From the NCBI GenBank assembly GCA_011800155.1, contig CM022368.1, positions 3,410,001-3,474,000 on the forward strand: a DNA stretch of 64,000 nt. The letters are read 5' to 3'. Numbering within the stretch: the first letter of the stretch is position 1; each line of letters begins with the position of its first letter. The notes beneath the pieces are model-generated. The model saw nothing but the letters and a program-made list of their open reading frames with translations, made no database searches and was not told the origin of the DNA. The position numbers and the translations under genes are program-made. Below are positions 7,836 to 33,251 of the stretch, in pieces. The DNA comes from Flammulina velutipes (taxonomy: Eukaryota; Basidiomycota; Agaricomycetes; Agaricales; Physalacriaceae).

Positions 7836-9771
7836 CTAAGCTATCCGAGGTTTACGATGCTTTCTAGCCAGGTCTGGCCGAATCTCTAGGAAGTCCTTCC
7901 TTGCTTCACGCAGCTCGCCACATTTCTTCCTTCCCGGACACGTGTGCCTTTCTGAATGTCCAAAATCTATGATGCGTACGTCTCCTTTCTCGTCGATGAC
8001 TACGTTTCGCGAAACAAAATCGTTATGTAGGAATCCAGCAATGTGAAGTCCATCTAGACAACGCAGGATATTTTTTCTACAACAAGATCAAGTCAGCTCT
8101 TTGAAACAAACACCAGGAGACAGTTATAACATACGCTTGCGTCGTAGTCAACCCTTCGAGCGACTCGCGTTGCCATCCATCTATACCCTTCAAATGAGTA
8201 CCACCGTCGTCTAAAATGATCATAGCAGCAGTATCATCCTCCAGAATGTATGATCCGTAGTAGGTTGGTGCGATGGTGTCAGAGCGGCTCGTAAGAACAT
8301 CGTAAATGTGCGCTTCTCGTGCGAGGCCTAGAAAATGTGTCCGACGTGCCATTTTTGCAATAACAGACCTAACAGACCCGTCAAGGAATTTTGCTGTCCC
8401 GCGCCAAGTCATATCATAAGGCCTTCGCAGTGGTTCGACAAGAGTGATATCGGCTAAATTCTTTGCTGCAGGAAGTGGGGATTGGGCTCTCCGTTGTACA
8501 TCAAGAGGCCCGAAATCCCATAGGTAATCGATATTCTCTGTAGAGTCCATGTTGTTGGAAGAAGTGAATGGGGGCAGCATAGACAGTGTTACTGGTGTAT
8601 CAGGGGATGTGCTGAAAAAGCTGCACGGGAAGAGGGAGCGCGATTTGGGAGAAAGATTTGGCTGGGAGAAAGAGAGTTTGATTGGTGGCTTTTGACTCAC
8701 CGGGGAGGCATCCATGGACCTGGCCTCCAAAATCGTAGGAAGTCCAAGTTCGAATACTGGAGTGCTATGATTGTTTTCTTTATCGCTTTTCGGATAGAGC
8801 TCAGCAGTGATAACGCCAGTCGGCCGAATCTTCTCAGCTGTTTTCGGCAAGAGCAGAGACGTTAAAATGCCTATGAGAGGTATCGACTGCGAGTCCAAAG
8901 TTGACCTGAGACGATAAGAATCGGATAACGATATTACGATACTGCCATCAGGACGGTGACCTAATATCAATGACGATGAGCGTGTATTCAACAAAAACTC
9001 CCTCTAGACTCACATAGCTCGGAGAACACGATTGTGGCACCGGTGAATAATACTCCAAAACCATGGTGTGATGATCCTTTTGAAACGTCGAGAAGATGTA
9101 ATGCCATCTACAGCGGACGTATGTGAACAAAGTAGTCCAGCGTAAAAGTGACAAAGTCTCACCTTCATAGCGAGGGCAGAACCGTCGGAAAGGGACCCTT
9201 GGTTTAATGCTTTCCCGCGAAGTAAGTCGGGTAGATAGTATTGTAGAACATGAGGTGCCTCGAAGTCCAAGGCGATTACTGTAAGACGCTCCTCGTCCTG
9301 AGTTACTGCTTGCAAGTTGTAGCCACCGTGAAGTAATTCTGAAGACGGAGTAAGAACATAACGTATCGTGGGGTCCAATTCGGTGAGTAGAATGTCAAGC
9401 ACGTTAACAAAGCGCTGGGCGTAGTCATAGATAGCCATTTTGTCCAAGAACGACTGAGGTTCTTTTCTTGTGCGTAGCGATTCGAGGACAACGAGAACCG
9501 GGTAAGGTATAGGCGTGTCTGTCAGGCCATGATCCCCCAGGAAATCTGTGAAAGCCTGGCGAATGCGAGATGTTATGGAAGAGTCGTGGGTTACATATGA
9601 TGGTCGAAGGAGTGGTGGAAAGAGGTCGACGTAGGGGTCTATGTTGTGATCTTCATGTTGATCAAAGTTATTTGAAACCGGTGGGAGGCAGTAAGTGGCA
9701 AGGTCGCCCCATGTTGTAGGCAGTTCTGACAATGTCATGACAGTACGAAAGAGAGTCGTTGTCGGCATCAA
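7836..9771 (-). CDS. Protein-kinase-like fold protein with HND catalytic loop
   Basis: The predicted product starts MMPTTTLFRTV at 9771 (an in-frame ATG at 9738 is an alternative) and ends at the TAG at 7836-7838. The N-terminal half (to about 9010) has no family I recognise. The C-terminal half is a kinase-like fold: a lysine region around SVIAKMARRTHFLGLAREA, then a catalytic loop read across a short intron as HNDFVSRNVVIDE, and the metal-binding IIDFGHSE. The loop has Asn in place of the Arg of the usual HRD, a trait of RIO-like and choline-kinase-like folds and of several basidiomycete kinase-like families. Catalytic Asp, the following Asn and DFG are all present, so phosphotransfer is possible. 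Substrate is unknown. Introns lie near 9002-9160 and 8080-8145. A Ser/Pro-rich middle segment around 8600-8760 is likely disordered. Confidence 0.7.
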
Positions 9772-9962
9772 TCCCGGCCCATGGATCCCGATTCCCGACG
9801 ATGCATTCTTTCGGGCCGTACATTGGCTTGTGTGCTACGGAGGAGATGGAAGTGTCGGACAACTCAGAGGGCTCCAGCGCGAGCGGGATATGTTTGAAGA
9901 AAGGCAAGGAGGCACCAAGACTAGGCGTACATTTGTAATCGGAACTTTACGTAGAATTGTTT

Positions 9963-12900
9963 TTATGCACCACTACGACCAGCCGCTTTGACAACCCCAG
10001 CTGCAAGAGTAGGTAAAGCCTTGATTGCGTTTTCCACCGGCGGCGAAGGTAGGAAACCCGCCCTCACCAACCAAGCCAGATATCTGCCCATTATCTCGTC
10101 ATCCACCGTCATATTCAGACGATCCGTATGCGGCGCTAGCACCTTGTGAGTGTTGGTGTCGTCTAATTCGGGCGCTTTGGTGCTCGTAGGCAGATCGTCA
10201 AGCACAAAGTGTAGCAATGGATACAATGCGTTGTCCTGCACTTCCATGACATGCTGCTCGAGCTTGCGACGCCATACGAGGTACTCGCAGGTCTCTGTAG
10301 GGAAGCCATATTGTGCCAGTGGCGATAGCATGCCGTTGAAGGTGGGAGGTGGTCGGGCAGTGATATGCATGACCGACATTGGTGCCTCAGGCAAAGGTGA
10401 TATCGCTGCGAGAGACGTTGCTAGTGCTACATGATCCACGGGAACCATGTTGATAGTGTTGTTCATGTCGGGTACTAAGCCCAGTTGAATGCAGCCTTTG
10501 ACCATGCGCCAAATGAAGTCGTCAGTGTTTGTCACTATGAGCGCCAATCAGCACATATTGGATGAGATCTTATACAAGAACGTACCCGCAGACGTTGAAT
10601 CACCGACTACATAGCCAGGACGGACGATGTGTCCACGTAGACCTCGGCGACCAGCCTCAAAGAGAAGTTTCTCAGACACCCACTTCGTTTGACCATATCC
10701 AGTCTTCAAAGTCGACCGAGCTCCTTCCAAATCATCACTCTCTGGTATTCCCTTCAAGCCCGAATCTCGGCTAGCGAGAGTCTCGGCCAGCCTGACATAG
10801 TGCTCGGAATCTATGGCAGATGTAGATGAAACGAAGACTAGAGACTTTTGCTTGGTCGTCGAAGCTAGTTCGATGGCTGTCAGCGTTGCAATGACGTTAG
10901 CTGCACGAAGCTTCTCGTATGGATACACCCAATGGACCTGTACTCATCCTGTCAGTACATGTTACGAAAGGACATAGAAGAAATGGACAAACCAAGGCGC
11001 CATTGTGTAACACGACATCGGCTTCTCGAGTGACATTCTCCCAATTATCACCTAAGCCAAAACGCTCGAGACCAAGATCACCCGTCAAGACCTCTAACCG
11101 TCCTTCGGTGACCCACTCATCATCCCAAACCCCGCGATCCGTAGAGCCTTCCTTCAACCTGTCTAGTCCCTTCTGCTTGTCTGAAGCACGGACCAAACAT
11201 ATGACCTTCTTGACATTCGGTCGTGAGAGAAGGTCGCGCAGCACAAACGCGCCAAGGAATCCAGTAGCACCCGTCAAGAACACTGTAAGGGGCCCATTGA
11301 AGTCCACACGCAATGGTCCATACGAGTCCTGCAATTTCCCCACCAGCTCGTCATAGTCATGACCGTACTCGACGGCAGTAGCAGGCTTGGATGACGGTGT
11401 GGAGGGAACTGCTAGATGACCATTGGAAGATGGCGCGTCAGAATCCTTGTAAGTAAGTCCAAAGTCCGCATTTCGAAGAGCTTCCACGGCTTGAACGAGA
11501 CCGCCAATCGTCGGTTGGTCGAATATCAAGCCAAGTGGGGCTTCCACGACAAAGGCCTTGCGAATCTCAAAGATGAGACGAGTGGCGAGGATAGAATGGC
11601 CACCGAGGTCGAAGAAGCTCTCATCTAGTGGTATCGGTTGAGGTGCATTGGGCAAGACACCAGCCCAGAGGCTGCGCATCTTCTCTTCCGTCGAACTTGG
11701 CTTGCCAGATGACTGTGCTACTGCTGATACCGCCTGGGCAGTATCGGGGAAGGGCAAGATGGGCTTGTCAATCTTGCCATTGGGGTTCAGAGGCATCCGC
11801 TTGAGAGGAACGAACACTATCATGTCGTCAGAATCTATGCCACGTCAATATTGGACCAACTTACGAGTCGGCACGCTGTAACTTGGTAGCTTCTTCTTGA
11901 GGTACTCTCGGATATCTTTGATAAGGCGACGATACTTTCTTATTCCATGTACAAGACCCTTGCTGTCTTCCGCATCGCTCACGTCGCTGGCAAACCCGCT
12001 AAGCTTGTCGCTCTCCAGTGGAACGAAGTAGCTGACGAGGATCTTCTCTTCGTCCTTATCACGTCTGACCAAGGTGACATTCTCCCTGATAAGAGGGTGT
12101 TGGCTGAGATGAGTGTCGATTTCGCCAAGTTCGATTCTAAATCCTCGAATTTTGACCTGGTCATCGGCACGACCCGTGCATTCGACGATACCGTCTGGAA
12201 GATAGCGACCAAGATCTCCAGAGCGATACATTCTGTCGCGTACACCCTTCCAGTATCGAGCCTCCGGTCCTGGTAGCGAGCCAGTGGTCGGATGCTTGAT
12301 GGTATCTTTGAACGTGACGGTGGAGGCAGAAAACCAGTTGTTCACGAACTTCTGCGCAGAGGCGTCGGTATCAAGGTACCCCTCAGCGAGGCCACCCGAA
12401 CGGACATAAATCTCTCCGACTTCTCCAACAGCGCATGGAACGTTCTTGTCGTTTCGGTTCACAACCAGAAGCTGTACATCAACCATGCCCTCACCTGCGG
12501 GCATGATGTCTTTTTGTGTCGCGAGGAAAGTAGGATCGACGGAGATAGATGGAATGGCGAAGTATGACACCGCACGTTGGGTTTCCGTAGTGCCATACAT
12601 GTTGATAATGCGGACATTGGCGGCGAGGGACTGAAGTCGAAGACAATCGCGCTTTGTTAACACATCTCCAACGAAGAATGCATTGAGGAGGGAAGGGATC
12701 TGCCGAGTAGCTTGCGCTGATAACAACTGACCCATAGCAGGCGTTAGGTGAGTGACGGTAACTTCGCTTTCCGCCATCCATTCTGCCAGTCGGCCGGGAG
12801 TGCCAATGTCATCTGCTGTGGGTACGTGCAGTTGTGCCCCGAAGAAGAGTGGCGTGAACACTGAAGACGGCATTCAACGGGGATAAGAGAGTGATACAGT

Positions 12901-14510
12901 GCCACACTCACTATCACGCTGAATGGGATCATGGGCGATACCGCTAAGCATGGTGAACTTGGACGTCTCGTCTAACCCGAATCTTTCGCCCATCCAGGGG
13001 AAGAAGTGGGTTAAACTATAGTGGCGGCCGCGTACGCCCTTGGGTATTCCTGTACTTCCGCTCGTAAATGATAGGGTCCCCACACTGTCTGGACCCAGAG
13101 TGACATTCGGATCGGTGTCACCTAGGTTGCTCAACGTGTGAAGGACATCGACGTTATCCGCGCCCATACCTCCCAAGATCTGCCCATCGGACATAACCTC
13201 GAGACCTGGAACCTCAACTCGAATTTTGAGCTCTGTTGACAAGAATTCGCGGACTGACGGGTTGATAACGCCTGCGCCCTTTAGTACTACCAAAGCACGC
13301 GGCTGTGCGACACGGAGGTATATGGTCTGTCGAGAAGCTGGGTAGGCAGGATCTGACTATCTGTGGTTAATAATGAAGACATGAATCACACCGGAGGATT
13401 CTTACCTATAACCGAGAAAGTTGCACCAGCCTTCAAAACTGCCATCACGGCCACGACGAGATCAACGCTTCGATGTGCATAGACCATAACAACTTCCTCA
13501 CGCTGTACACCGTTCTTGATAAGGTGATGAGCAAGGACGTTTGAAGCGCGTCTGATTGCTCCGTAGGAGAACACACGCTTTCCTTGCGGTTGACCGAGTG
13601 ATGCAGCTGGGATGGTCTGAACAACGCAAGGTCGGTCAGGCCACTGTTGTGCATTGCGAGAGAAGACGTCGGTAATGGCGCCCTTCCAATCGCACCAGTT
13701 GAGGTCAGCCGTGGGATTAGGGAGTTTTTGGCGTTGTGCAGGCGTCAACAATGGGACGGCTCCCACTAGGGTGACTGGGTTGGAGGAGACTTTTTTGAGA
13801 AGTACAGTGAGCTGGTCAACTATTGTTGTAATTCTGGAATGGGAGAAGAAAAGGGAGTTGTAGAGGATGCGTAATGATATTCGGGGAGCGATCGACGCGC
13901 GAGATGAAGCAGGAGGACGCGTCACGAACACGGTCAAGTCGGATGTTAGACTGGTGGATCTTATAAAGTTGTCTTGTGGCGCATCTGTTTCGTCGAAGAA
14001 ACGGACGCGAAAGATGGGGCCCTCCATATTTTCGTCCCTGCCTTTGTACAAGGCCTTGGTGATGGCTTCGAAGGGAACGGCATCTAGTTCGGCCTCTCCT
14101 TCGATCTGCTGGACGCGGCGGACGATGCCCCAGAATGGATCTGACGGATCGACGGAAAGCCTTAGAACGAGTGGATCGCGAGCCAAAGCAGATGAAGATC
14201 CAACGACAATATCTGTGTCTCCGGTGTATCTGTGTAGGAGGACGGTAAAGGCTGCGAGAAGGAGATGGAAGGCTGAGGGCCTGCTGGTCTGATCGACGGT
14301 GTCATCCTCGTCGTCGTCTTCAATTTCGTTGTACAAAGCGAGTTTCATCAACGAGAGAGATGCATTTTCGGAGAGTTCTGCTACATGTTCGACCTCGATG
14401 AGTTTATTGGATCCCGATGGGCGGGGATAGTCCGTCGGAAGGGACATTGAAGGCAGATTTTGCAGTCTTGCCAGTACTCTGGCCAGACGAGCGTCCATAG
14501 AGTCTGCCAT
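9963..14510 (-). CDS. LYS2: L-2-aminoadipate reductase, large subunit (Lys2)
   Basis: An NRPS-like enzyme that adenylates alpha-aminoadipate, loads it on a carrier arm and reduces it with NADPH to the semialdehyde in fungal lysine synthesis. Domains in order: N-terminal condensation-like region (from [13 protein letters not shown], first in-frame ATG at 14510), adenylation domain with [31 protein letters not shown] and [13 protein letters not shown], then NPNGKIDK, the carrier motif [14 protein letters not shown] whose Ser takes the phosphopantetheine, and a Rossmann reductase with [19 protein letters not shown] and the catalytic-type [13 protein letters not shown]. The tail ends [11 protein letters not shown] at 9965. 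Short introns sit near 13294-13410, 12874-12900, 11824-11862, 10935-10992 and 10535-10585. Length, about 1,400 residues, fits the family. It shares a 92 bp divergent promoter with PFS2. Confidence 0.95.
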
Positions 14511-14602
14511 GGTGGTAAAAGTTTGACTCGAAATTGCTTCGGATGGGCGGTCCGAAGCTGGTAATGTTCTGCTGACATAATTAATACCTCTCCGCCACAA
14601 CC
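14511..14602. promoter_or_regulatory. Compact bidirectional promoter LYS2 / PFS2
   Basis: Only 92 bp separate the two divergent start codons. Inside are a TGACTC core at 14524-14529, which is the half-site of Gcn4-type bZIP factors that control amino-acid synthesis, and a perfect 7 bp inverted repeat CTTCGGA-N7-TCCGAAG at 14537-14557, which carries facing CGG/CCG triplets of the kind bound by Zn2Cys6 dimers. Binding itself is inference. Confidence 0.4.
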
Positions 14603-16793
14603 ATGGCAGAGGTTGCCCTGCCTATTCTCCTTCCGCTGAACTCGGTCCCCCGAAAACATGATATCGAATGGCAGCCAACAAAGTACCGCCTGCCGCCACA
14701 GCCACCACCTTCAGTCGACGATTCGAAAACTCCGGAAATTGTCCTCGATGGCAGACTCATAAAAAAGACACGCCCAAGAAAGACAGTCGATTATTTCGGC
14801 GGAATGGGCCGCTGGGAAACCGTGCGTCTCACGATTTGAATGCCCTCTCAAATTAATTCCTTGTTTAGCTCCGGAAAACGCGCCCAAGTGCAGGCTACAC
14901 GCCATACATGAGGACCAGTCCCCCCGAGATAATAAATGTGCGTCATTCTGTACATTTCATACAACAACATCTCACACATTGCAACAGCTCCTTCCACCCA
15001 AGGCATATCCTGATAACGCGTCCACGTCCCTCTGTACCAAGTTTGTTCACACTTCAACGAATAAAATCCGTTGTCCCGTTAACGTCGTGACGGTTCGTGG
15101 CCCACACCTTCTTCAATCTCAAAACACCAACAATCCCTTAGTGGACACCAGAAGGACGCCGTATCCTCACTGGATCCACCAGTGGCGAATTCACACTTTG
15201 GAACGGACTTACGTTCAACTTTGAAACAATTCTCCAAGCTCACGATAGTCCTATATGCACCCTTACATTCACGCATTCGGGGCACTATGTGGCGTCCGCT
15301 GACAAGAGTGGCGTCATCAAGTACTTTGAGCCCAACATGAACAACTTGACAGCGTGGCAGGGATCCAATTCCCGAGAAGCAATTCGTGGCATAAGCTTCA
15401 GCCCAGACGATCGTCGCTTCGCTACTGCCAGCGATGACTCCAGTGTCAGGATATGGTCTTTCCAGGAAAGCCGAGTAGAGAGTGTATTGAGCGGTACGAC
15501 AACAATAGCGCCCCATTTATGTTTCAGACTAATAAAAATATCAAGGTCACGGCTGGGATGTCAAATGCGCAGAATGGCACCCCACAAAAGGACTCATTGC
15601 TTCAGGAAGTAAAGACAACATGATCAAATTCTGGGACCCAAGGACAGGACAGGAATTGACCACGCTGTAAGGAAATAACGAAATAGCCCCCTTCCATTGC
15701 TCATCCATCTCTAGCCACAACCACAAAAACACCATCCAGGCGTTATCATGGTCTCCAAATGGGAATCACCTAGCGAGCGCTTCTCGGGACCAGACAGTTC
15801 GAGTATTCGACATTCGTGCCATGAAGGAATTCCGCATATGTAAAGGCCACAAGAAAGAAGTCTGCTGTAAGTAGAGCCGTCATTTCATAGTGTCCTGCTC
15901 ATCTTTTCCAAGCTATCGCGTGGCATCCCTTCAGCCCTCTCCTTGCGTCTGGCGGCTCCGAAGGCGCCATCCTTCATTGGGACATGGACGCGGACGACGT
16001 CACCCTAAACCAGCCCGTAATCGCTCCTCGAGCAACCCTCTCTGAAGCCCACGACTCCAACGTCTGGTCTATGGCCTTCCACCCGCTCGGTCATCTCCTC
16101 GTTACCGCCTCAAACGACCACACAACTCGTTTCTGGTCGCGCGAGCGCCCCGGAGACGCCAGCTCTGTGTTCACTGCAGGTGGAGAGAAACCACCTGAGA
16201 TGAACGATACCAGCGGGCAGGACGAAGACGACGATGCTATGGTACCAGGATTCAGCTATGGTGGTGGGGCTGACCCTGCTGACCCGGAAGAATGGTGGGG
16301 CAAGCAGCAAGATGACAGCTTTAGGGAAAAGTCGATAAATGGGAATGATACCTCGGCGGGCTACGATGCTGGTAGCGACGACTTCATCCCAGGGCTAGGA
16401 CCGAGCGCACCTCCACCGGTGATACCACCTCCCCGGGTTCAACATGATGATTATTATGAATCTGGACCAGATGAGTACGGTAGAAGTAGAGGTGGTGGTG
16501 GCGGTGGTGGACGAGGTGGAGGGAGGGGTGGATATGACGGTGGCGGTGGTGGTGGCCGCGGTAACTATGAGTCGGGCGGGCGAGGTGGTTATGAATCTGG
16601 AGGGCGCGGTGGCCGAAGTGACTATGATTCTGGAGGACGAGGCGGTCGAGGTGATTATGATTCTGGTGGACGGGGAGGGTATGATTCAGGCGGACGTGGA
16701 GGATACGATGGCGGCTACAACAATTCTCGAGGAGGCCGTGACGACAGAGACCGAGGTTCAGGAGGAGGGTATAACAAACGTGGTAGATATTAA
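14603..16793 (+). CDS. PFS2: Polyadenylation factor Pfs2 / WDR33-type WD40 protein with RGG tail
   Basis: A subunit of the cleavage and polyadenylation factor that recognises pre-mRNA 3' ends. The N-terminus carries the hallmark [12 protein letters not shown] just before the propeller. WD40 repeats follow: [78 protein letters not shown] and [16 protein letters not shown]. The C-terminal 110 residues or so are almost wholly RGG and Gly/Tyr/Asp/Ser repeats (16485-16790), an RNA-binding, methylatable type of tail. Several introns interrupt the N-terminal half (for example near 14820-14870, 15085-15150, 15495-15545, 15665-15735 and 15868-15912). The stop TAA is at 16791-16793, 65 bp from the stop of the convergent WD40 gene. 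Confidence 0.92.
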
Positions 16794-22337: not shown

Positions 22338-24891
22338 CTAGTCGTCAAGGATGGCCTGAACCACGCTGCCAACTCTCAGCTGTTTGAGGTCCGTATAAGT
22401 CTGCCAACTTATCAGCAACGGGGATTTTCGATCGTAGAGCCTCCTACCTGTCCAGTTCCAAGGAATATAATAGGTTGTCCTGTAACATATGTCATAGATA
22501 ATGCTGCCCCAACCTGCACACACAAAAAGGTGAGCATTTTAGATATAGTGCAGCAAAGAGAAAATTATCACCTTATCATCCACTGTATCCCACTTCGTGA
22601 CGAGCATACCATCAATGCCCCTACCCTTTCCAAGGCCTCCAGCAGCGGAGGAGAAATCCTTCAACGCTCGGTCAAACTTGGTGAGTTGGTCCACTGCTTC
22701 GTTGCCAACGAGGGCTTCACCAACGAAGATGATTTTGTCCGGATTGTTTACAGACACGAGCTAAGTTTCTGTTGAGAAAACCTACTTCTCCGGAAAAAGA
22801 GAAGATTAATACCTTCGCTAGAGCCCGCATGAGAGGCTGGAATTGAAGACTGTCAGCTACCAGCGAACCGACAACGGCGAGGTACACACCTCGTTATCCT
22901 GCATGCGTCCAGCTGTATCAATCAAAACAACGTCGAAATCATTTTCCTTCGCTACGAAAATGAGCCTAAGCTTTTTTTGAAGATGTAGAATGAATAGCTT
23001 ACCATGGTCGATTGCTTGTTTTGCTATGCCAGCGGCGTCTTTGCCGTAGCCCTTCTCAAATAATTCGACTCGGCCCTTGCTATCCGTCGCTCCGTTCATG
23101 CCGAGCATGCTTAAATTTCGAACATGAACACGTAGTTGTTCCACTGCACCGCTCCTATACTGTACGTGAGACCTAGGTAGCTCGAAGCAATTTCTAAACC
23201 CACCTGAAGGTGTCGCACGCAGCTATCAAGACGCGTAATCCATTTTGGATGAGCCAGAAGCAGACCTTTGATAGGTTCGTGCTTTTGCCTACGCCATTGA
23301 CACCAACAAAGGTGATGGAGTAGGGCATCCGTTGCTGATTAGACGCAAGAGGCGATGACAGTTTACTTCGAATCGATAACAAAAGATCCGTGGACGTCTT
23401 TGGGGTGAGAATGCGTGTGATGGAGTTGGACAGTGCCATTCGCACCGCGGAGTTTGTTGCTATATCCAACATTAAGTTATTGAAAACCGCAGGAAAGGGA
23501 GGCTCACTTTGAAAGCTGCCTACTTTCTTCCCCAACAGGGTCTCGCCTACACCCTCGCAGACCTTCTCCGAGATGTCCTTTGCTACATTCTTCTTCATGA
23601 GATGCTGCTTCATTCCTTCAAGGACAGGCTTCAAGTCAGCCTCAGTGAACGTCTTTGATCCTGTCAAGCGGGCAAATAGAGATCCCAGAGTACCAATGGA
23701 CGTCGCATCCGTATCTTCTTTCTTGCTTTTCGCAGATTGGAGAATATTCTGTATCTTGGCATCTTCCTCCTGGTCCGCCTTGCGTTTAGGCTGCCAATCA
23801 GCAACACTATACATACCGTCTTTCACGGTGCCGAGAGCAGTCTGGTCAACCAAGGAGCCAAGATCTTGCGCCACCGAATACCTATCCTCGGCCTTATCCA
23901 TGCTGTAGTCGAGACTCTCCATGTCTTGGTCGGTGGGCGCCTCGTCACCCCATTTCCGCTGGACTTTGGCCTTCGACTTTCGTTTATTTGGGGCCTCCGA
24001 GCTGCAAACACATTAAGATGGGAGAAACTAGATAGGGATGGTACCCACTCCGAGCTTTGCACACTGTCGGCGCCATGAGCAGGTGTACGTGGCCGACCAC
24101 CTCCTCGCCCACCCCTACGCCCGCCTCGGCCTCGTAGTCGAGCCTTGAGAGCTTGGACGTTTCTGGCAATCTGTTGTTCATCCAATGGCTCGTCCGTAGC
24201 CTGAGACGGAACTGATAATGATGAGTTTATTTTTGGATGTTGGGAGATGTAATACGCACGTGTGCTTTGGTCGTCAGAAGGAGGAGTTGATTCCACCTCG
24301 AGGGGTGCAGCCTTTACCGGCGCGCGCATACGAGAGCTACGGTCCTAACCCGGATAAGCACGACACAGAAATAAATGTTAGAGCTGACTCACCTTCTCTT
24401 CGAGACCTTTCAAAAGTCGCTCAAATGTTTTGTCCCATCCGTCTAAGGCCTTGGTAAAATCCCATGAGGTGAGCACCTCGCTAGCCAATGTTGCGCCATT
24501 GTTTACGGTATGCAATGATGCCACGAATGCAGTGAGAAAGGGGCGGAAAAGCTCGACGAAAAGGGTCTTCATTGATTCAAGGAGTTCGTCCACGTATGTG
24601 AGTTGAAGGATGCGCTGATACGCCACGACGAAGATGAGCTCCAGGTCATTGAAAAAGGTCCATTTCACAGCATAACCACTCTTCTCGTATGTCTCTTCCG
24701 CAGTCCGGCCTTCTATCAGAGCCTCGCGGATTAACGAGTTGACTGGAGATGCTGAGGATGCTGCTAGTTGCGATGCCTCAGGTGTGAATGACTTGGACCA
24801 TAAAACAAGTCCTCCTGAACGGAATAAATACAGCGGGATGAGCATTCTCCGAGTACACACCTTTGTGGGAAATAGAGCAGAGGTCTAGCAT
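22338..24891 (-). CDS. SRP101: Signal recognition particle receptor subunit alpha
   Basis: The GTPase that docks SRP-ribosome complexes at the ER. The true N-terminus is in a small first exon (ATG at 24891) joined by a 46 bp intron: MLDLCSISHKG then GLVLWSKSFTPEA, the classic start of the SRX domain that binds the beta subunit. A charged linker with a Gly/Arg-rich patch (RGRGGRRGGRGGGR) follows. The NG domain has the P-loop GVNGVGKSTNLSK, the G3 motif DTAGRMQDN and the G4-like TKWDTVDDK, and ends QLRVGSVVQAILDD before the TAG at 22338-22340. Introns lie near 24330-24390, 24180-24260, 24000-24045, 23470-23510, 23150-23205 and 22530-22560. Length and order fit the family. Confidence 0.95.
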
Positions 24892-25138: not shown

Positions 25139-25461
25139 CTAGGGTGTGCTCTTGTCAACAAGCTCGCGGGGAGTGCTCTTATCGACGAGTGCTCGTGGGG
25201 TGCTCTTGTCGACGATCTCGCGTGGGGTACTCTTGTCGACAAGTTCGCGTGGAGTACTCTTGTCGACGAGCTCTCGCGGTGTGCTCTTATCGACAATCTC
25301 GCGGGGGACGCTCTTGTCAACGATCTCGCGGGGGGTACTCTTGTCGACGAGTGCTCGTGGGGTGCTCTTGTCGACGAGCTCTCGGGGTGTGCTCTTGTCG
25401 ACGAGCTCTCGGGGTGTGCTCTTGTCGACAAGCTCGCGTGGGGTACTCTTATCGACGAGTC
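25139..25461 (-). repeat. 27 bp coding minisatellite, twelve copies
   Basis: Exon 2 of the repeat-protein gene is an uninterrupted array of 27 bp units. Most units carry the palindrome GTCGAC (codons for Val-Asp) or a one-base variant. Because the unit length is a multiple of three and lacks stops, frames on both strands stay open across it, which creates spurious overlapping open frames. Units differ at synonymous positions, so the array is not a fresh duplication. Confidence 0.95.
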
Positions 25462-25589
25462 CTAGAAGCGAACAAGTCAGCACGAGCGCCACATCAATGA
25501 AAGCGCGAACGCGTACCACCTGTAGGAGCGGCGGCCACTCCAATGGCTGCGACAAGGAAGGCAATGACGCTAAAAATGCTGAACTTCAT
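25139..25589 (-). CDS. Secreted tandem-repeat peptide; candidate RiPP precursor
   Basis: Two exons (25589-25520 and 25461-25139) separated by a 58 bp intron encode 130 residues. Exon 1 is a clean signal peptide, MKFSIFSVIAFLVAAIGVAA, followed by APTG. Exon 2 is nothing but a nine-residue unit, LVDKSTPRE, repeated twelve times head to tail (the last copy ends at P just before the TAG). Variation is confined to L/I at position 1, one T/V at position 6 and E/A at position 9; VDKS and PR never change. Each unit ends Pro-Arg then Glu, which could act as a Kex2-type cleavage site (Kex2 accepts Pro-Arg in some substrates) and would release ELVDKSTPR-like nonapeptides; there is no dibasic site. Next to it are two UstYa-family genes, as in dikaritin-type RiPP clusters. 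It could instead be a structural secreted repeat protein. Confidence 0.85.
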
Positions 25590-26170
25590 GTTAGATTCTG
25601 GGGAGAAGTTCCAGGTTATCCAGCGTCCTTTTATGGGTTCCAAGAGCCCGATTTTTCTCCATTATGTCGACGCGATCTTTTTCGATCTGAGACAACACGG
25701 GTTCGCATCAGTGAGTGTTCTTCTTGTGGACCTGTACGAACAATCAGATACATGTCAACTGAGGGCTCGATAAGGTTGGTCACATAGTACTGCAACTTCT
25801 TGTACGTGTCAGACACGGAATTTCATCAAGGAAAGATGCGAGGAAATGAATGGGCATGGACGAGGGTGGTGCTATCTTGGTATTATGTTATGCAGCGCGC
25901 ATAACCACTTGCCGCGTTTCCATTCCATAACGAAGCGTACGCAGTAGATGGAGAGTGTTTTCCATCACGGAGTCTTGTGCTTCAGAAGACCGCCATAAAC
26001 GGATACTAGCGTTGTATGTACGTGGGAAATCATCTGGGAGATCAAAGAACTTTAGTGAGGCCGACGGAAAGTCTCCGATCATGAATCAGAGTAAGAAAGA
26101 AAAGAAATTCGGAGCTACGTTACATGAATTGCGAATACCAGGCCGGGCCAGCTCGTACGGAGAGAATAGC
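25590..26170. other. Intergenic region between repeat protein and UstYa-like gene A
   Basis: About 580 bp that should hold the promoter of the repeat gene and the terminator of gene A. A 64-codon minus-strand frame with an ATG at 26082 (starts MIGDFPSASLKFFDLPDDF, stop at 25888) reads rather like protein, but has no recognised family and no splice partner; I do not call it a gene. Confidence 0.35.
25627..25637 (-). promoter_or_regulatory. TATA-like element of the repeat-protein gene
   Basis: On the minus strand the sequence reads CCCATAAAAGG, 38-48 bp before the start codon at 25589. A short 5' leader after a TATA box is common for highly expressed secreted fungal proteins. No experiment supports it. 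Confidence 0.3.
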
Positions 26171-26787
26171 TCATTCCCCTTTCTTTCGCCACTCTTCATA
26201 CACCATGTGATTTCTCTCAGCCTCCTTGTAAACCTCCGTCCAGTCCTTGCAAACAGCCTCGTAGGTCCGAACCGCTGTGGCACGGGAGTTCTTTGTCGAC
26301 TCCAAGCCAAGACTCGGACGACAAAGGATTGTTTGGCGGAGATACGTGAGACAGTGCTTTGTGAGGGTGGATGGCTCCTGCGAGGCGATGTAGTCCTTGC
26401 GAATGAGATCGAGGCACTTGAACTGATGAAATAGAGTGACCGTATACGCCTGCCCGGGCTGGTCGTCTTCGTCGATATGGACGAGGTGGCCGCCAGATGG
26501 AAGTAGAGCAGCGAATTCGACGTCACTGTCCGCGGCGTCAGGCCGATAGTGGGCTGTGGCACTGTACATCATCGCGACTGGATCCGACGCAATGGGCGAG
26601 AAATAGTTATGTGTCAATCCTGAAAGCGTGGTTAGTTCTGGATATGGATTTACGAAGTCAGCAAACCTTGGAGTGAGGCACTCTGGCTGACTGGCCAAGC
26701 CAAGCGTGAGAGAAGGTAAGTTGCGACGATAGCAAGCAGCACCGTCGAGAGCTGGAGAGCACGATGGGTAAGTCTTTGCGAGGACAT
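26171..26787 (-). CDS. UstYa/DUF3328-family protein A (HxxKC variant)
   Basis: Two exons (26787-26667, 26619-26171) around a 47 bp intron with a CTAAC branch point give 189 residues. Residues 10-31 form one N-terminal membrane helix (ALQLSTVLLAIVATYLLSRL) with a short cytoplasmic end, as in UstYa proteins. The family core is HQFKC at 105-109 and HC at 129-130 in KHCLTYLRQTILC, then CKDW and EEWRK near the end. The usual first motif is HxxHC; here Lys replaces the second His, so metal binding or catalysis may differ. UstYa and UstYb are needed for oxidative macrocyclisation in ustiloxin-type RiPPs. The gene is head-to-head with copy B and tail-towards the repeat-peptide gene. Function here is inferred from family and context. 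Confidence 0.85.
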
Positions 26788-27062
26788 TGTGGGAGGCAAT
26801 CAGGAGTCGAAGCTTGAAAAGCGCGTCAGAGAGCCTTAGGCTCAGGAACTACAAAGAGCAGTCTCAGTTCAATGAGGGATGACAACAATAAAACGGTCGA
26901 GATCTCGAAACAGTTCAGTTCGCAATCTGCCATATCGAGTATAGGCGTTAGTAGTTCGGACATCCGGGGTAGAAACACATAACAAGAGATCCCGGAAACC
27001 CTATCTGAATCAGTGAGCGTCTTAAAGTGTAAGATGGCAGGCATTACCGTAATCTTCGCAAC
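26788..27062. promoter_or_regulatory. Shared divergent promoter of the two UstYa-like genes
   Basis: A 275 bp gap between the two start codons. It contains a perfect 12 bp palindrome, TCGAGATCTCGA, at 26897-26908, a possible binding site for a dimeric regulator of both genes. Co-regulation is inference. Confidence 0.4.
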
Positions 27063-27712
27063 ATGTCCCTCTACTTTGGATTTCTCATGGTGCTCAACGT
27101 CGCGATTTCGTTGGTGCATCTTCTTCATCTCACGCCAGAGTTCAAGATGGGTTTGAAAGGTCAGCCAGAAAGTCCGGACAAGGAAGAATGTAAATTGACC
27201 ACGTAGCAGGTGGAATTGAGCGCGAGTATTCGTACATCGGAGATGACTTCCCTTCACGCCACCCTCTCCTCGAGTTTTCAGCGGCATCCTTCACGTTGCA
27301 GGAGACCGCTCACTACGGCCACAATGCGACGGACGCCACAGATGCTATCGAATGGGAGACCCTCAACGACTATCCTGGAGGGTATGGTCGAGCGCACCTT
27401 GGTCCAAATCAACGATCCTTCCTCATGACATTCTATCATCAATCCCACTGCATCCGGGAATTGCAGAAGGCTCTCGTTCATCAAGACCACGCCGCAGGTA
27501 CTGAACATCACGTCGATCATTGTCTCCAGTACTTGCGCCAAACGTTTCTCTGCGAGGCGGTAGACTCTGTCGAGAAGGGGGATTTCATGAAGAAGAATTA
27601 CCTAGTCGACCGCGTTCAGGACGAGATGGTGTGTTGGGATTGGGAGGCGGTCTTTCACCAGCTCGACGAAAGTTGGGGCGTATTTACTGAATGGAGAAAA
27701 CATTGGAATTAG
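27063..27712 (+). CDS. UstYa/DUF3328-family protein B (canonical HxxHC)
   Basis: Exons 27063-27159 and 27210-27712, joined over a 50 bp intron, encode 199 residues. The N-terminal 25 residues (SLYFGFLMVLNVAISLVHLL) form the membrane anchor. Then come REYSYIGDDFP, a well-known entry motif of the family, a stretch ending LGPNQRSF, the core HQSHC at residues 109-113 and HC at 136-137 in DHCLQYLRQTFLC, and CWDW plus TEWRK at the end. All His and Cys residues of the family motif are intact, unlike copy A. Both copies end with the same C-x-D-W and EWRK pattern, so they are paralogues. The ATG at 27063 is chosen because it gives the membrane helix; a short upstream exon is not excluded. Role in oxidising the repeat peptide is inference. 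Confidence 0.87.
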
Positions 27713-28366
27713 CTACATTGTATTTTTCTCGAATTATTGCCTTCGCGAGGTTACACTGAGGAGAAATCGAGTCGGGGAGCTTGAAAAAAGTAAGTTGCAT
27801 GGGCGCAGGTCGCAATCGACATTTCCGAACAATCCCGGTCGGAGTTTGAATCAAACAAGTTGGTTCAGTTCGTCTATCTGGCTGCTTTTGTTTTCACTCG
27901 ACACCTTGGCTTGGTGACGGCGCAGCTGATAATAGCGTGTGAGAGCTCCTGATCTCAAAAGAACTACATTCATCAAGAAGACTCTCCCAAGTTTGAACTA
28001 CGCCCCCACCGCATGATTTTTCTGGTGCATCGCCACAACCATTCCCCAAACGCAAGATTTTACCGTGATATTACGGCACGACTACCTCTAAAAATGTTGC
28101 TCTGGAAGCAACAGCGCTCGGGTCTCCCCTTGTTGACACTCGAGTTCCGGGACATGATCTGGAAACTTTGTTCTCTCCACCCTTCTGGTTCCGTCTAACC
28201 CCCTCTACGGACTTTATTTGGAGTCTCAGGTATAGAGGTCCTTTGTTCTGATATTTCAAACCCTGTCACGTCGGATTCACATCATCCTTTTGTTTTTTTG
28301 GGTGGCTGTCTTACCTCAAGAGGCCTCGATAATATACTAGAGACCGACGCTCCAATTGCAACCGAC
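27713..28366. other. Intergenic region between UstYa-like gene B and the But2-like gene
   Basis: About 650 bp. It should hold the terminator of gene B and the promoter of the next gene. A 61-codon frame at 28013-28198 begins with ATG but has no family signature. No other structure seen. Confidence 0.35.
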
Positions 28367-29367
28367 ATGGCTAACTCTAACTCCCATCTCTACGAAGCCC
28401 TGCTGCCTGAAAGCGAGAAGGAATACTCGACGGATCGTCCCCATACTCAACCGGGGACATCTACATCCTTCACGCGATGGGCCATCGTTTTCTGCACTCT
28501 CTGCACTCTAGTGAATGCGCTTCTTGCGTTCGGTCCAAGCTTCACACCTGGTCCAAGCCAACTCACCTGTCGGGATCCTCTAGCATCTGTAAAGAAGGCT
28601 GACCTCGGTCACCTTCGTCGTCCATCCCCATACATTGGCCTGCAAAACATTCCCCGACCTGATACGCCAGTTCCCCGCTCCATCTTGAATTACCCACAGA
28701 CCATCGCTCTCGTGGATTCTGCACATGGTGCCAAAGTCTTCGACGATGACCCCCTGCGGTATATGACTCGCACCGGCTCCGTTTCTCCAGAGGAGCGCCT
28801 GGTTCATGTCGATAAATCAGTGAGTTACCTTTTACATCAGCTGCTGATCATATCCTAACTTCTCTCAGTTGTCTACAATTGTACAGTTCCGCGCAATCGA
28901 TTTCGGCATGGAGTTGTGCCAGCTGAGGATGCGAATCCCAGCTGAATCTCTCAATCACACGGATCCCTTCATCGTCTCCGTGTACCGCCTCGATTCGACG
29001 CGATTGGATACCAAGTCTCTCTCGTATAACACTCGACCCTCTCGGGTGACCGAGGTAGCTAACATCGAAGTCGCCAATGAAGCCGTCGATTGGAGTCGTG
29101 ATTTCTCATGTGCCTGGGACGAGCTTCTGACCTTTGAGGTGGCTTGTTTCGCGGAGGATAGGCCTGGGTATGACAAGCAGAGAGAACGATGTTCTTTGGA
29201 ATGGTGGCAGAACAAGGAGAGTGAAGATCCTCAGCAAGGTATGTGTCGCTTCCAAGCGCGCCCACTCCATTCTGACTTAGCTTTTTGCCAAGCCCTGTTC
29301 ATGGTGCAACATGCCACTATCTGATTTCGTTGTAGGAATTATTTGTACACGATACTTAACTGAATGA
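28367..29367 (+). CDS. Type II membrane protein with But2-like C-terminal domain
   Basis: Three exons (28367-28819, 28869-29238, 29336-29367) encode 284 residues. Residues 1-35 are hydrophilic, 36-56 form a membrane helix (TRWAIVFCTLCTLVNALLAF), and the rest would lie in the lumen or outside. The outer part contains FRAIDFGMELCQLRMRIP and a beta-rich region with paired cysteines, ending QGIICTRYLTE. I relate it to the basidiomycete proteins annotated as But2 C-terminal-domain containing (a family named after a fission yeast ubiquitin-like binding protein); this is from memory of the pattern and is not certain. Its membrane topology equals that of the two UstYa-like proteins beside it, so all three could work on a secreted peptide in the same compartment. 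Confidence 0.65.
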
Positions 29368-29415: not shown

Positions 29416-31415
29416 TTACACAGGTAGGCCGCCCGCAAAGATCTCTGGCTGGACTTTCTTCTCCGACTCGTGTTTCTCGTAGCTATCGGTGTCGCCATTA
29501 GCGGACTGTCCGGTCTGGTTAATTGAAGATCGTTCTATCAGGAATAGGATGTACCTGCTGGGTGCGGCCAGGCTGGAATTCGATATCGACGCCGTCGGCG
29601 TCCGTTCTTCTGGTAGTAGTCTGATTCAAAACTTGAGCAAACTAAACTGCGAGCACACATAAATAACTCACTCGTGCCTCACTTGCTCCGAACGCAAACG
29701 AAGTCATGTCTTCCGTCGCGTGAGAGTAGAATGATGGGCCGCGCAGGTAAGCCCTGCTATTGAGATTGGCCTGTAAGCAGCGTCAACGAGTAGCTTTGAG
29801 TCATCGGAAGATTCACGCGCCAGCAGAGTGTTACAATAGAGGGGGCAAATTAGGAAGCTGACAGCTGTAAACGCGGGGTTACCGTGCCATACGGTCAACT
29901 GCGGAGCGTGTCAATAACATTATAGAACGTCTGTGGACAGCTTGACGAAACATACTGCGATGATAGTGAACATGGACACCAGAGCTGTCCAGACGCCGGT
30001 GTTGACCGTAAGAACAGATAGTCGGTCGAGTATTCTGTCCGTGCTACTTGCAGTGTAATTCATTGCATGATCACCAAAAATATAACTAAACATACCTCTG
30101 GAAACCATTGATAATTTGCGTCTTCTTCTTGTATGCCCGGATGAAGAATAGAAGGGAGACAGCGATGAGAACATCACAAGCCACTGATAGAGCCCAAGTT
30201 GCAATCATCAATCCCTGTGTGAAGAAGTGAGAATCGGCGGATATAGACGTGGGATAAACACACGTCTATCGCAAAGAGTCTGGCATTCGAGGATGTGTCT
30301 TGGTAGCTAGAATATATTTTGAGACGAATGAGCAGTATGATCAGTTGCAATGTACATACCACAAGGCGATGAGAGCTAGAAGGTAAATATTAGTATAACC
30401 GCGCTTCTCCTGGCAAAGCTGATTCACGTACCCGTCGTCAAAGCTGATGGTAAAAATATGACTTAGAATGTACATCGGTGAGTCGGAGATAGGCTTACCG
30501 GGCTGAGCGAGCGCCAAAGGCACCTAATAGGCACTTGTCAGTCTCGGGTACAGATGCCAACAAAATACCATAACTCACGAAAACAACAGGAACGATGAAG
30601 TGTTTGTTGCTCACTTCAGAATTCATCAGCAGTTAGCAATCATACTTGCGAGAGAACGCACATATCCAAATCCGATAAGCAAAGAACAGCTGTACAGGGC
30701 ACGATACCATCGTCTGTAACGACATGGGAATCAATTCATTCATTTCTTGGTATCAGAAAACTTGGACTCACATCAAAGAACAGTGACCACTACCCATTTG
30801 TATGAGATATATGTTCATTTATCAGAGGTAGAATCACGTACCAAGTATTCCTGGCTGATCGTATTAATGTATGCCCAATCGCCCCAGTGAGGAACGGTGA
30901 GCTGATAGACTGGAATCGGATGAGCGCTCAGCGCTCAGCCACCGGAGAAACTCGAGTGTTCGTACCACCAAGAAGACACGAAATCATATGTCCCGTGTTC
31001 ATTAGCCTATCCAGGCTCTAAGTTGATGATAAAAATCCGAGAATGTGGCGCACCATAGCCAAAGCACCTAGTAAAGTTAGTCACTGGGTACGACATGCAC
31101 CGGTCAATTCTAACGCACCAAAGTTGTGAAAAGCCACGAATCCTTCAATGAATGGCTACAATCCTCATCAAAACAAGCTTCCTGATGATCATATGGAAGG
31201 AAACGTACTGCACAAAATAATAGAATCTATGAGTCGCATCGCTCAGTCTGGTATATGCCGCGCTGTAAAATGAATCATACGTACGTCTGTACGCAGGTAG
31301 CACCCCATAACGCCGCGGAGAACGGCATCAATACGACCTCACTGCCAATAGAATCGGGAATCGAGAGCATTCCAGGCGGGGGGTTGGTACCAATGTTGCA
31401 CGATGTAGCAGACAT
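29416..31415 (-). CDS. DUF6534 seven-helix membrane protein
   Basis: A many-exon gene (about ten exons) starting MSATSCNIGTNPPPGMLSIPD at 31415. It follows the DUF6534 pattern of Agaricomycetes: an N-terminal helix with LMPFSAALWGATCVQT, later WGDWAYINT, a segment with CPVQLFFAYRIW, then helices separated by short loops, the C-terminal cytoplasmic motif LTNLNSR, and a hydrophilic tail ending EIFAGGLPV at the TAA 29416-29418. The family is expanded in mushrooms and has no settled function. Its 3' end faces the But2-like gene (48 bp apart). Exon borders were not all traced. Confidence 0.72.
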
Positions 31416-32082: not shown

Positions 32083-33251
32083 ATGGAAACGACGGGCACC
32101 GTCGACTTCGTTGTGCAAGGCGAAACGTACCAGACGTGGTATATAATCTTTGGTGATCTCAAAACCAGTGGTACTCGACCACTCGTTGCTCTCCATGGCG
32201 GTCCAGGCATGAGCCACCACTACATGCTGTGAGTACGTCGAAAGCATCCCTCCATTGACGGCTCAATTCCTCGTTAGTCCATTCAAGGCTGTATATGAAC
32301 GGTCGAGGTACGCGTTTCCGACGATCGTGTTCACAAGCGCAGGGTCATTATATATGTAGCACGCCCGTCATCCTGTATGACCAGCTCGGGAACGGAAAGT
32401 CTAGCCACATTCACGATAAACCGAAGTCATTCTGGACGCCGGACCTCTTCGCTGATGAACTAGATAACCTCATCACCCAGCTCGGAATATCTAATGACTA
32501 TAATCTTGTCGGACAGTCTTGGGGAGGTAAGCATCCTACAGGATAATTCTCATTGTTCACTGACCCAGACGATCGCAGGAATGCTAGCCGCGTACTTTGC
32601 AGCCAACCGACAGCCACAAGGATTGAGGCGCCTCGTTCTGTCAAACCCACCTTCCTCGATGGAGTTATTCATGGAGGGCGCCAATAAACTACTTGAACGA
32701 TTCCCACAGGAACAAGTCACTCTGATACGCGAGCATGAGAGCAAGGATGACCTCAAAGCGCTTGAGGTTCCAGAATATCAAAAAATTACAACTGCTTGGT
32801 GTCAACGCCACATTTGCGTACTTGACCCTTGGCCGGCAGACCTAATGGCATCCTTCAACGCTGCGAAGGAAGACCCGACTGTCCACCAGGCACTGTATGT
32901 CGTATTTATTGCGACTCGCACGTCAACTGACCACATCATAGAATGGGTGGCTTCAACTTCAAGCTCGTTGGCAACTTGAGAAAGTTCTCGGTCATCGATG
33001 ATCTTCACAAGATTAGACAGCCTACCCTCCTCATCGGCTCCCCAGAAGATGAGATCCAACCAAACGTGATACAGCCGTTCTTCGATAAAATCGACAAAGT
33101 AAAATGGATCGAATTTCCCAACAGTTCTCATCTCCCACATTTGGAGGAGCCTGACAAGTACGCCACCAAGTTCATTCATAATAGTGCTGTCACTCACAAA
33201 TGACATGACAGGTTCTTTGACGTTGTGCTGGGTTTTCTGGGGCTAGCATAG
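32083..33251 (+). CDS. Alpha/beta hydrolase, peptidase S33 (proline iminopeptidase-like)
   Basis: The start ATG at 32083 gives [19 protein letters not shown]. Landmarks of the proline iminopeptidase group are present in order: [13 protein letters not shown] (oxyanion hole), [12 protein letters not shown], the nucleophile elbow VGQSWGG (Ser), a lid region (about 32590-32900), the acid residue near GSPEDEIQP, and the catalytic His in [11 protein letters not shown]. The last exon, joined after DKYATK by a 43 bp intron, gives [12 protein letters not shown] and TAG at 33249-33251. These enzymes remove N-terminal proline or cleave small peptides and amides. No signal peptide is seen, so it should be cytosolic. 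It lies about 5 kb from the Pro-containing repeat peptide, so a link to peptide trimming is possible but speculative. Confidence 0.85.

Follow-up and report, generated by a model that had tools for sequence, protein, structure and literature searches.

We analyzed a 64,000-nucleotide stretch of the basidiomycete Flammulina velutipes (contig CM022368.1, positions 3,410,001 to 3,474,000), which we call the window, and in it a group of five genes: a gene for a short repeat protein with a signal-like start, two divergent genes of the UstYa (DUF3328) family, a gene for a membrane-anchored protein that we call gene C, and a gene for a proline-iminopeptidase-like hydrolase. All five lie within 8.1 kb. 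Judged by its gene content, the window is likely to hold a small peptide-biosynthesis locus. A first-pass annotation had placed the repeat gene, the UstYa pair and gene C at 25139 to 29367; that anatomy is confirmed, and the coordinates given are accurate to a few bases.

The repeat gene (25139..25589) is on the minus strand, with its ATG at 25589 and a TAG stop at 25139-25141. A single intron (~25462-25519), predicted from sequence and not from transcripts, separates a signal-peptide-like exon 1 from the repeat exon (25139-25461). It runs from 25516 or 25519 down to 25462, so that it is 55 or 58 nt long and the product has 131 or 130 aa depending on the form. The N-terminus is a hydrophobic, signal-like start, MKFSIFSVIAFLVAAIGVAAAPTG, with a mean hydropathy of 2.96 over 10 residues, the highest of the 5 listed between 24900 and 33400 by what is a hydropathy heuristic only.

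The repeat array (25142..25459, minus strand) has the unit consensus LVDKSTPRE. The number of units is twelve, as first proposed, although they are not twelve full copies: 11 units, with 6 substitutions among them, reach Pro-Arg, and the twelfth is shortened by the stop at ...LVDKSTP, so that it ends at Pro and has no Arg. Cut after each Pro-Arg, the array gives PTGGLVDKSTPR (that is, PTG(G)LVDKSTPR), then 9-mers, ELVDKSTPR five times, ALVDKSTPR twice, EIVDKSTPR twice and EIVDKSVPR once, and a final ELVDKSTP before the stop. Pro-Arg is invariant in 11 of the 11 units that get that far, and the residue after it varies (E or A). KEX2-processed repeat proteins (KEPs) are required to have 3 or more tandem repeats of 8 aa or longer; this array has 12 units with a length of 9 aa, though the twelfth is cut short. 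A whole-genome search for paralogues returned self-matches plus two weak matches on contig C7 (E 0.046, 30% identity), and no convincing one.

Is this repeat a coding frame? Tandem Repeats Finder scores the array at 348 for a 27-nt period and at 403 for an 81-nt period. Comparing the 11 full units with their consensus, there are 37 nucleotide differences, 30 of them at third codon positions. These cause 6 amino-acid changes, where 21.8 (sd 2.6) would be expected if the same differences were re-placed at random; the minimum in 5000 random placements was 11. The differences are not independent events, because the units are related by duplication, as the 81-nt period also reflects. Still, the repeat frame is under constraint, beyond what chance would give. 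Codon usage leans weakly to the sense frame (0.116 vs. -0.055).

The stop codon of the first UstYa gene is 581 bp from the precursor ATG, in agreement with the 0.6 kb of the first-pass annotation. This gene, UstYa A (26171..26787, minus strand, splice site uncertain), and UstYa B (27063..27712, plus strand, with an N-terminal hydrophobic anchor) are divergent, with ATGs at 26787 and 27063. Their assignment to the family is borne out by PF11807 scores of 42.8 and 40.4 bits, respectively, above the Pfam gathering cut-off of 25. Two HxxHC motifs, the suspected active site of UstYa proteins, are called conserved in a lichen study (PMC12048977). Both are intact in UstYa B (HQSHC and HVDHC). UstYa A reads HQFKC and LTKHC, so both of its motifs are broken. 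A PDB sequence search with UstYa B gave no match, and a single-sequence structure model of its exon 2 has a mean pLDDT (predicted local distance difference test) of 39.0.

In the whole genome, 11 exon matches group into at least 8 UstYa genes (16 UstYa-like genes have been counted in Pleurotus; PMC8893723). By reading of the alignments, both motifs are present in six of the eight genes found, and neither in the other two. UstYa A and the gene at C5:428224-428469, which does not have the same histidines either, are reciprocal best BLAST matches, and the latter adjoins C5:428991, a UstYa gene with both motifs. Thus, an intact UstYa gene is paired with a degenerate one at two places in the genome, in the window and at C5:428224/428991. 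The degenerate members are possibly non-catalytic partners of the intact ones.

Gene C (28367..29367, plus strand; predicted exons 28367-28819, 28869-29238 and 29336-29367) encodes 278-284 aa with a single hydrophobic segment near the N-terminus, as expected of the membrane-anchored third gene first described. It has no Pfam family at E-values up to 1, a PDB sequence search returned chance-level matches only, and a single-sequence structure model of its exon 2 has a mean pLDDT of 50.9. The hydrolase gene (32083..33203, plus strand, four exons by match) is 2.7 kb downstream. Its product passes the curated cut-off of TIGR01250 (184 vs. 167.65 bits) and matches PDB entry 3wmr over nearly its full length (E 1.6e-67).

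Genes of these kinds meet again at a second locus, on contig C5. A search of the 38.1-Mb genome detected one paralogue of gene C, at C5:414990-415592 (E 2e-22, with 27% identity in 199 aligned columns). A UstYa gene that has both motifs, C5:413779-414051, is 0.6 to 0.9 kb away from it. Both detected copies of gene C (2/2) are therefore within 1 kb of a UstYa gene. Downstream of the paralogue there are two iminopeptidase-like genes, C5:416371-417298 and C5:418065-418979, the second of which, given incomplete, scores 163.3 bits with TIGR01250, under the cut-off. Thirteen exon matches group into 6 iminopeptidase-like genes in the genome, a count that excludes a weak match on C13 (E 4e-4), and 3 of the 6 are at the two gene C loci. 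The remaining ones are on C10 (two) and C3 (one), and the genome search found no UstYa or gene C match on C10 or near the C3 gene. For any given position, the chance that an iminopeptidase-like gene falls within 5 kb is ~0.0016, a figure that assumes uniform placement and ignores gene density and tandem duplication.

A block of UstYa, gene C and proline-iminopeptidase-like gene thus occurs twice in this genome. In the window it starts beside the gene for the signal recognition particle (SRP) receptor alpha; on C5 its start adjoins a ribosomal L5 gene, and a copia-type gag frame comes after the block. Both loci may have arisen by duplication of a single cluster, and if so, identities of 27-50% imply that the linkage would have been kept for long.

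The genome is also rich in candidate processing proteases. There are 29 matches to PF01483 (15 of them on C5), and 28 have a peptidase S8 match at most 1.5 kb upstream on the same strand, which makes 28 kexin-like loci; the two that we inspected resemble kexins in the sequence around the catalytic His and Ser. In comparison, kexin genes are put at 1 to 3 in most of the fungi studied, and their number is said to vary least (PMC5371821), and three kexins are named for C. cinerea and other agaricomycetes (PMC9769878). Kexin-like genes appear to be greatly expanded here, with the reservation that the 28 loci are counted irrespective of intactness and the published numbers come from other methods. 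That this expansion bears on cutting after Pro-Arg is speculation. Have the processing proteases diversified together with their substrates?

Of the readings that we have considered, the likeliest is that the repeat gene encodes a KEP-like precursor for octapeptides, possibly modified by the UstYa proteins, and we hold it tentatively, at somewhat short of even confidence. The precursor would enter the secretory pathway, where a kexin-type protease would cut after each Pro-Arg and a KEX1-type carboxypeptidase would take off the Arg, releasing copies of [E/A][L/I]VDKS[T/V]P. Arg would be a mere processing residue, because the last unit is already encoded ending at Pro. More conjecturally, the peptide might be oxidized within the secretory pathway by UstYa B, which UstYa A may assist in a non-catalytic role; the iminopeptidase-like hydrolase might trim or degrade the peptide, and gene C might provide an accessory membrane-anchored protein.

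We favor this octapeptide pathway on several grounds. At the locus, these are the constrained frame, the signal-like start, the Arg-less last unit, the adjacency within 0.6 kb and the motifs of UstYa B. In the genome, they are the linkage of gene C to UstYa, the share of the iminopeptidase-like genes found at the two loci, and the reciprocity between UstYa A and its C5 counterpart. In addition, KEX2 cutting after a single Arg has been suggested as possible for C. cinerea KEPs in Pichia (PMC9769878), and there are the 28 kexin-like loci to consider. The proposal of a cluster for a ribosomally synthesized and post-translationally modified peptide (RiPP) stands in part: the genes are compactly grouped next to a housekeeping gene, and both HxxHC motifs are intact in UstYa B. 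The link from peptide to enzymes, that is, modification of the repeat peptide by UstYa A or B, is unproven.

Several results weigh against the octapeptide pathway. The 131-aa precursor translation has no dibasic pair (KR, RR, KK or RK); Lys and Arg occur in it only as single residues. Kex2 reportedly cuts after Pro-Arg in the yeast killer toxin, but the one paper that we found on this did not show such a cut and gave only Lys-Arg sites. None of the 12 units has a Tyr, Phe or Trp, as the first-pass annotation had remarked, and so the known Tyr ether cross-link is impossible, which leaves Leu/Ile, Val, Lys, Asp, Glu, Ser/Thr or Pro as the residues that could be oxidized. A Pfam scan of 33 other open reading frames (ORFs) of the window, a selection, found no tyrosinase, P450 or methyltransferase family. 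Finally, we read four other UstYa regions, 130 kb in total (C5 404-444 kb, C5 684-714 kb, C3 3312-3342 kb and C1 4227-4257 kb), scanning them for tandem repeats in the DNA and in all six translated frames, and found no KEP-like array at the thresholds used. A repeat precursor of the window kind is present in 1 of 5 UstYa regions, and none was found in the 40 kb around the C5 copy of gene C, so the module seems not to need such a precursor. This is the main evidence against taking repeat plus UstYa as the unit.

One array in those regions called for a closer look. It lies at C5:410308-410395, 3.4 kb away from a further UstYa gene, and has a 21-nt period with about four units of 7 aa; 0.6 kb upstream of it there is a hydrophobic start on the minus strand (C5:410962). 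We set the array aside as a second precursor because it has no KEP basic junctions, one frame reads as a coiled-coil-like heptad, and stops break the frames; that it is a second, odd secreted precursor is unlikely. Weaker repeats at other UstYa regions have autocorrelation scores of 40-49.5 (for instance C3:3317393-3317467).

That no KEP-like precursor was found at the C5 module speaks for the closest competitor, in which the window gene yields linear, unmodified KEP-like peptides, and the UstYa genes, gene C and the iminopeptidase constitute a module of their own with a different substrate. We regard this as nearly as likely as the octapeptide pathway. It agrees with the linear, minimally modified peptides reported from the Agaricomycetes C. 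cinerea, L. edodes and Pleurotus (PMC9769878), and with the lack of an aromatic residue for a cross-link. A survey of fungal KEPs speaks on both sides: DUF3328 genes are within 15 genes of 1758 of 7878 KEPs, and of 103 of 1,680 (6.1%) in Basidiomycota, but their frequency peaks at the position next to the KEP gene (PMC7329392). And the window precursor does sit 0.6 kb off, on the very edge of the module. The same survey makes it too strong to call the pairing undescribed, as had been done, given that basidiomycete KEPs with DUF3328 neighbors were already on record.

Alternatively, the product could be an uncut secreted repeat protein, at the cell surface or structural, with its repeats acting as a chain. 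Such a protein of 131 aa could well lack dibasic sites and carry its Lys and Arg singly, but an invariant Pro-Arg in 11 units, a variable next residue and a last unit that stops at Pro form the pattern of a cut site, and we find this option improbable. Last, a non-coding minisatellite or a gene on the opposite strand is hardly credible: several frames are open in 27-nt arrays, and an antisense frame matches the sense frame in constancy (6 of 90), but third positions of the sense frame carry most differences. The minus strand also has the ATG, the signal-like segment, a stop and plausible ends for an intron, and at the array no signal-like start is listed for the plus strand (plus-strand splicing left aside).

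To return to the octapeptide pathway, if the precursor is a UstYa substrate, it would mean UstYa chemistry on a peptide without aromatic side chains. A more ambitious version, which we think unlikely, would make this a basidiomycete RiPP class to which dibasic-site screens are blind, with aromatic-free octapeptides released at Pro-Arg alone by members of an enlarged kexin set. A UstYa pair, one active and one degenerate, would then oxidize their aliphatic or polar side chains, with gene C and the iminopeptidase-like protein as fixed partners. The grouping of UstYa, gene C and iminopeptidase offers a new genomic handle for finding such mushroom loci. Among the open-licence papers searched, we found none joining UstYa with proline iminopeptidase, nor DUF3328 with Agaricomycetes.

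Other neighbors contribute less. Between gene C and the peptidase gene there is a gene for a DUF6534-type membrane protein (approximately 29416..30523, minus strand). The family is typical of Agaricomycetes, so that its presence supports a basidiomycete and probably agaricomycete origin of the DNA, and it is weak evidence for cluster membership because it has 25 matches in the genome. On the precursor side, the SRP receptor alpha gene (23197..24884, minus strand) provides a housekeeping boundary. An adenylating enzyme at 8.0-14.6 kb was rejected as a cluster member, as WD40, MAT1 and SRP receptor genes intervene; this protein (8080-14621, minus strand) has AMP-binding, carrier and reductase domains with a condensation-like front, which we take to suit an alpha-aminoadipate reductase (Lys2), probably an ordinary one. 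C-terminal to the WD40 match, there is a Gly/Arg/Tyr-rich, RGG-like repeat (16494-16787, plus strand).

How does the locus compare with known systems? With the KEPs of Agaricomycetes, the precursor shares a short length, a signal-like start, tandem near-identical 9-mers and a basic junction residue absent from the last unit; it differs in having a single Arg after Pro and no dibasic junction. KEPs have been called by KR, KK, RK or RR between repeats (PMC7329392) or by KR/RR/KK (PMC6339444), and in PMC9769878 by the four dibasic sites and, in addition, by a search for repeats that were then judged by eye. Lacking a dibasic junction, the precursor falls outside the published definition and is KEP-like, not a KEP. 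Site-based screens would miss it, and the by-eye screen might catch it; if the precursor is a UstYa substrate, site-based surveys, as their methods are described, would be blind to repeat precursors with monobasic junctions. The basidiomycete KEP genes with DUF3328 neighbors show the same pairing, but were chosen by dibasic sites, and Tyr is present in 65.6% of all repeats with such neighbors (PMC7329392), which leaves about a third without it.

Dikaritins (ustiloxin, asperipin-2a, phomopsin) likewise have a repeat precursor that adjoins UstYa/DUF3328 genes, one of the window pair having the double HxxHC. The window units, on the other hand, have no Tyr or other aromatic residue, no tyrosinase is among the ORFs scanned, and the locus belongs to a basidiomycete and includes gene C and an iminopeptidase-like gene. 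The exact dikaritin pairing that had been claimed is not supported, given also the junctions of the precursor and a second locus that pairs UstYa with gene C and iminopeptidase-like genes. As for the proline iminopeptidase family (TIGR01250; PDB 3wmr and 7a6g), the window hydrolase resembles it in score and in the extent of its match; what sets it apart is its linkage to gene C, whose paralogue is followed by two of its homologues.

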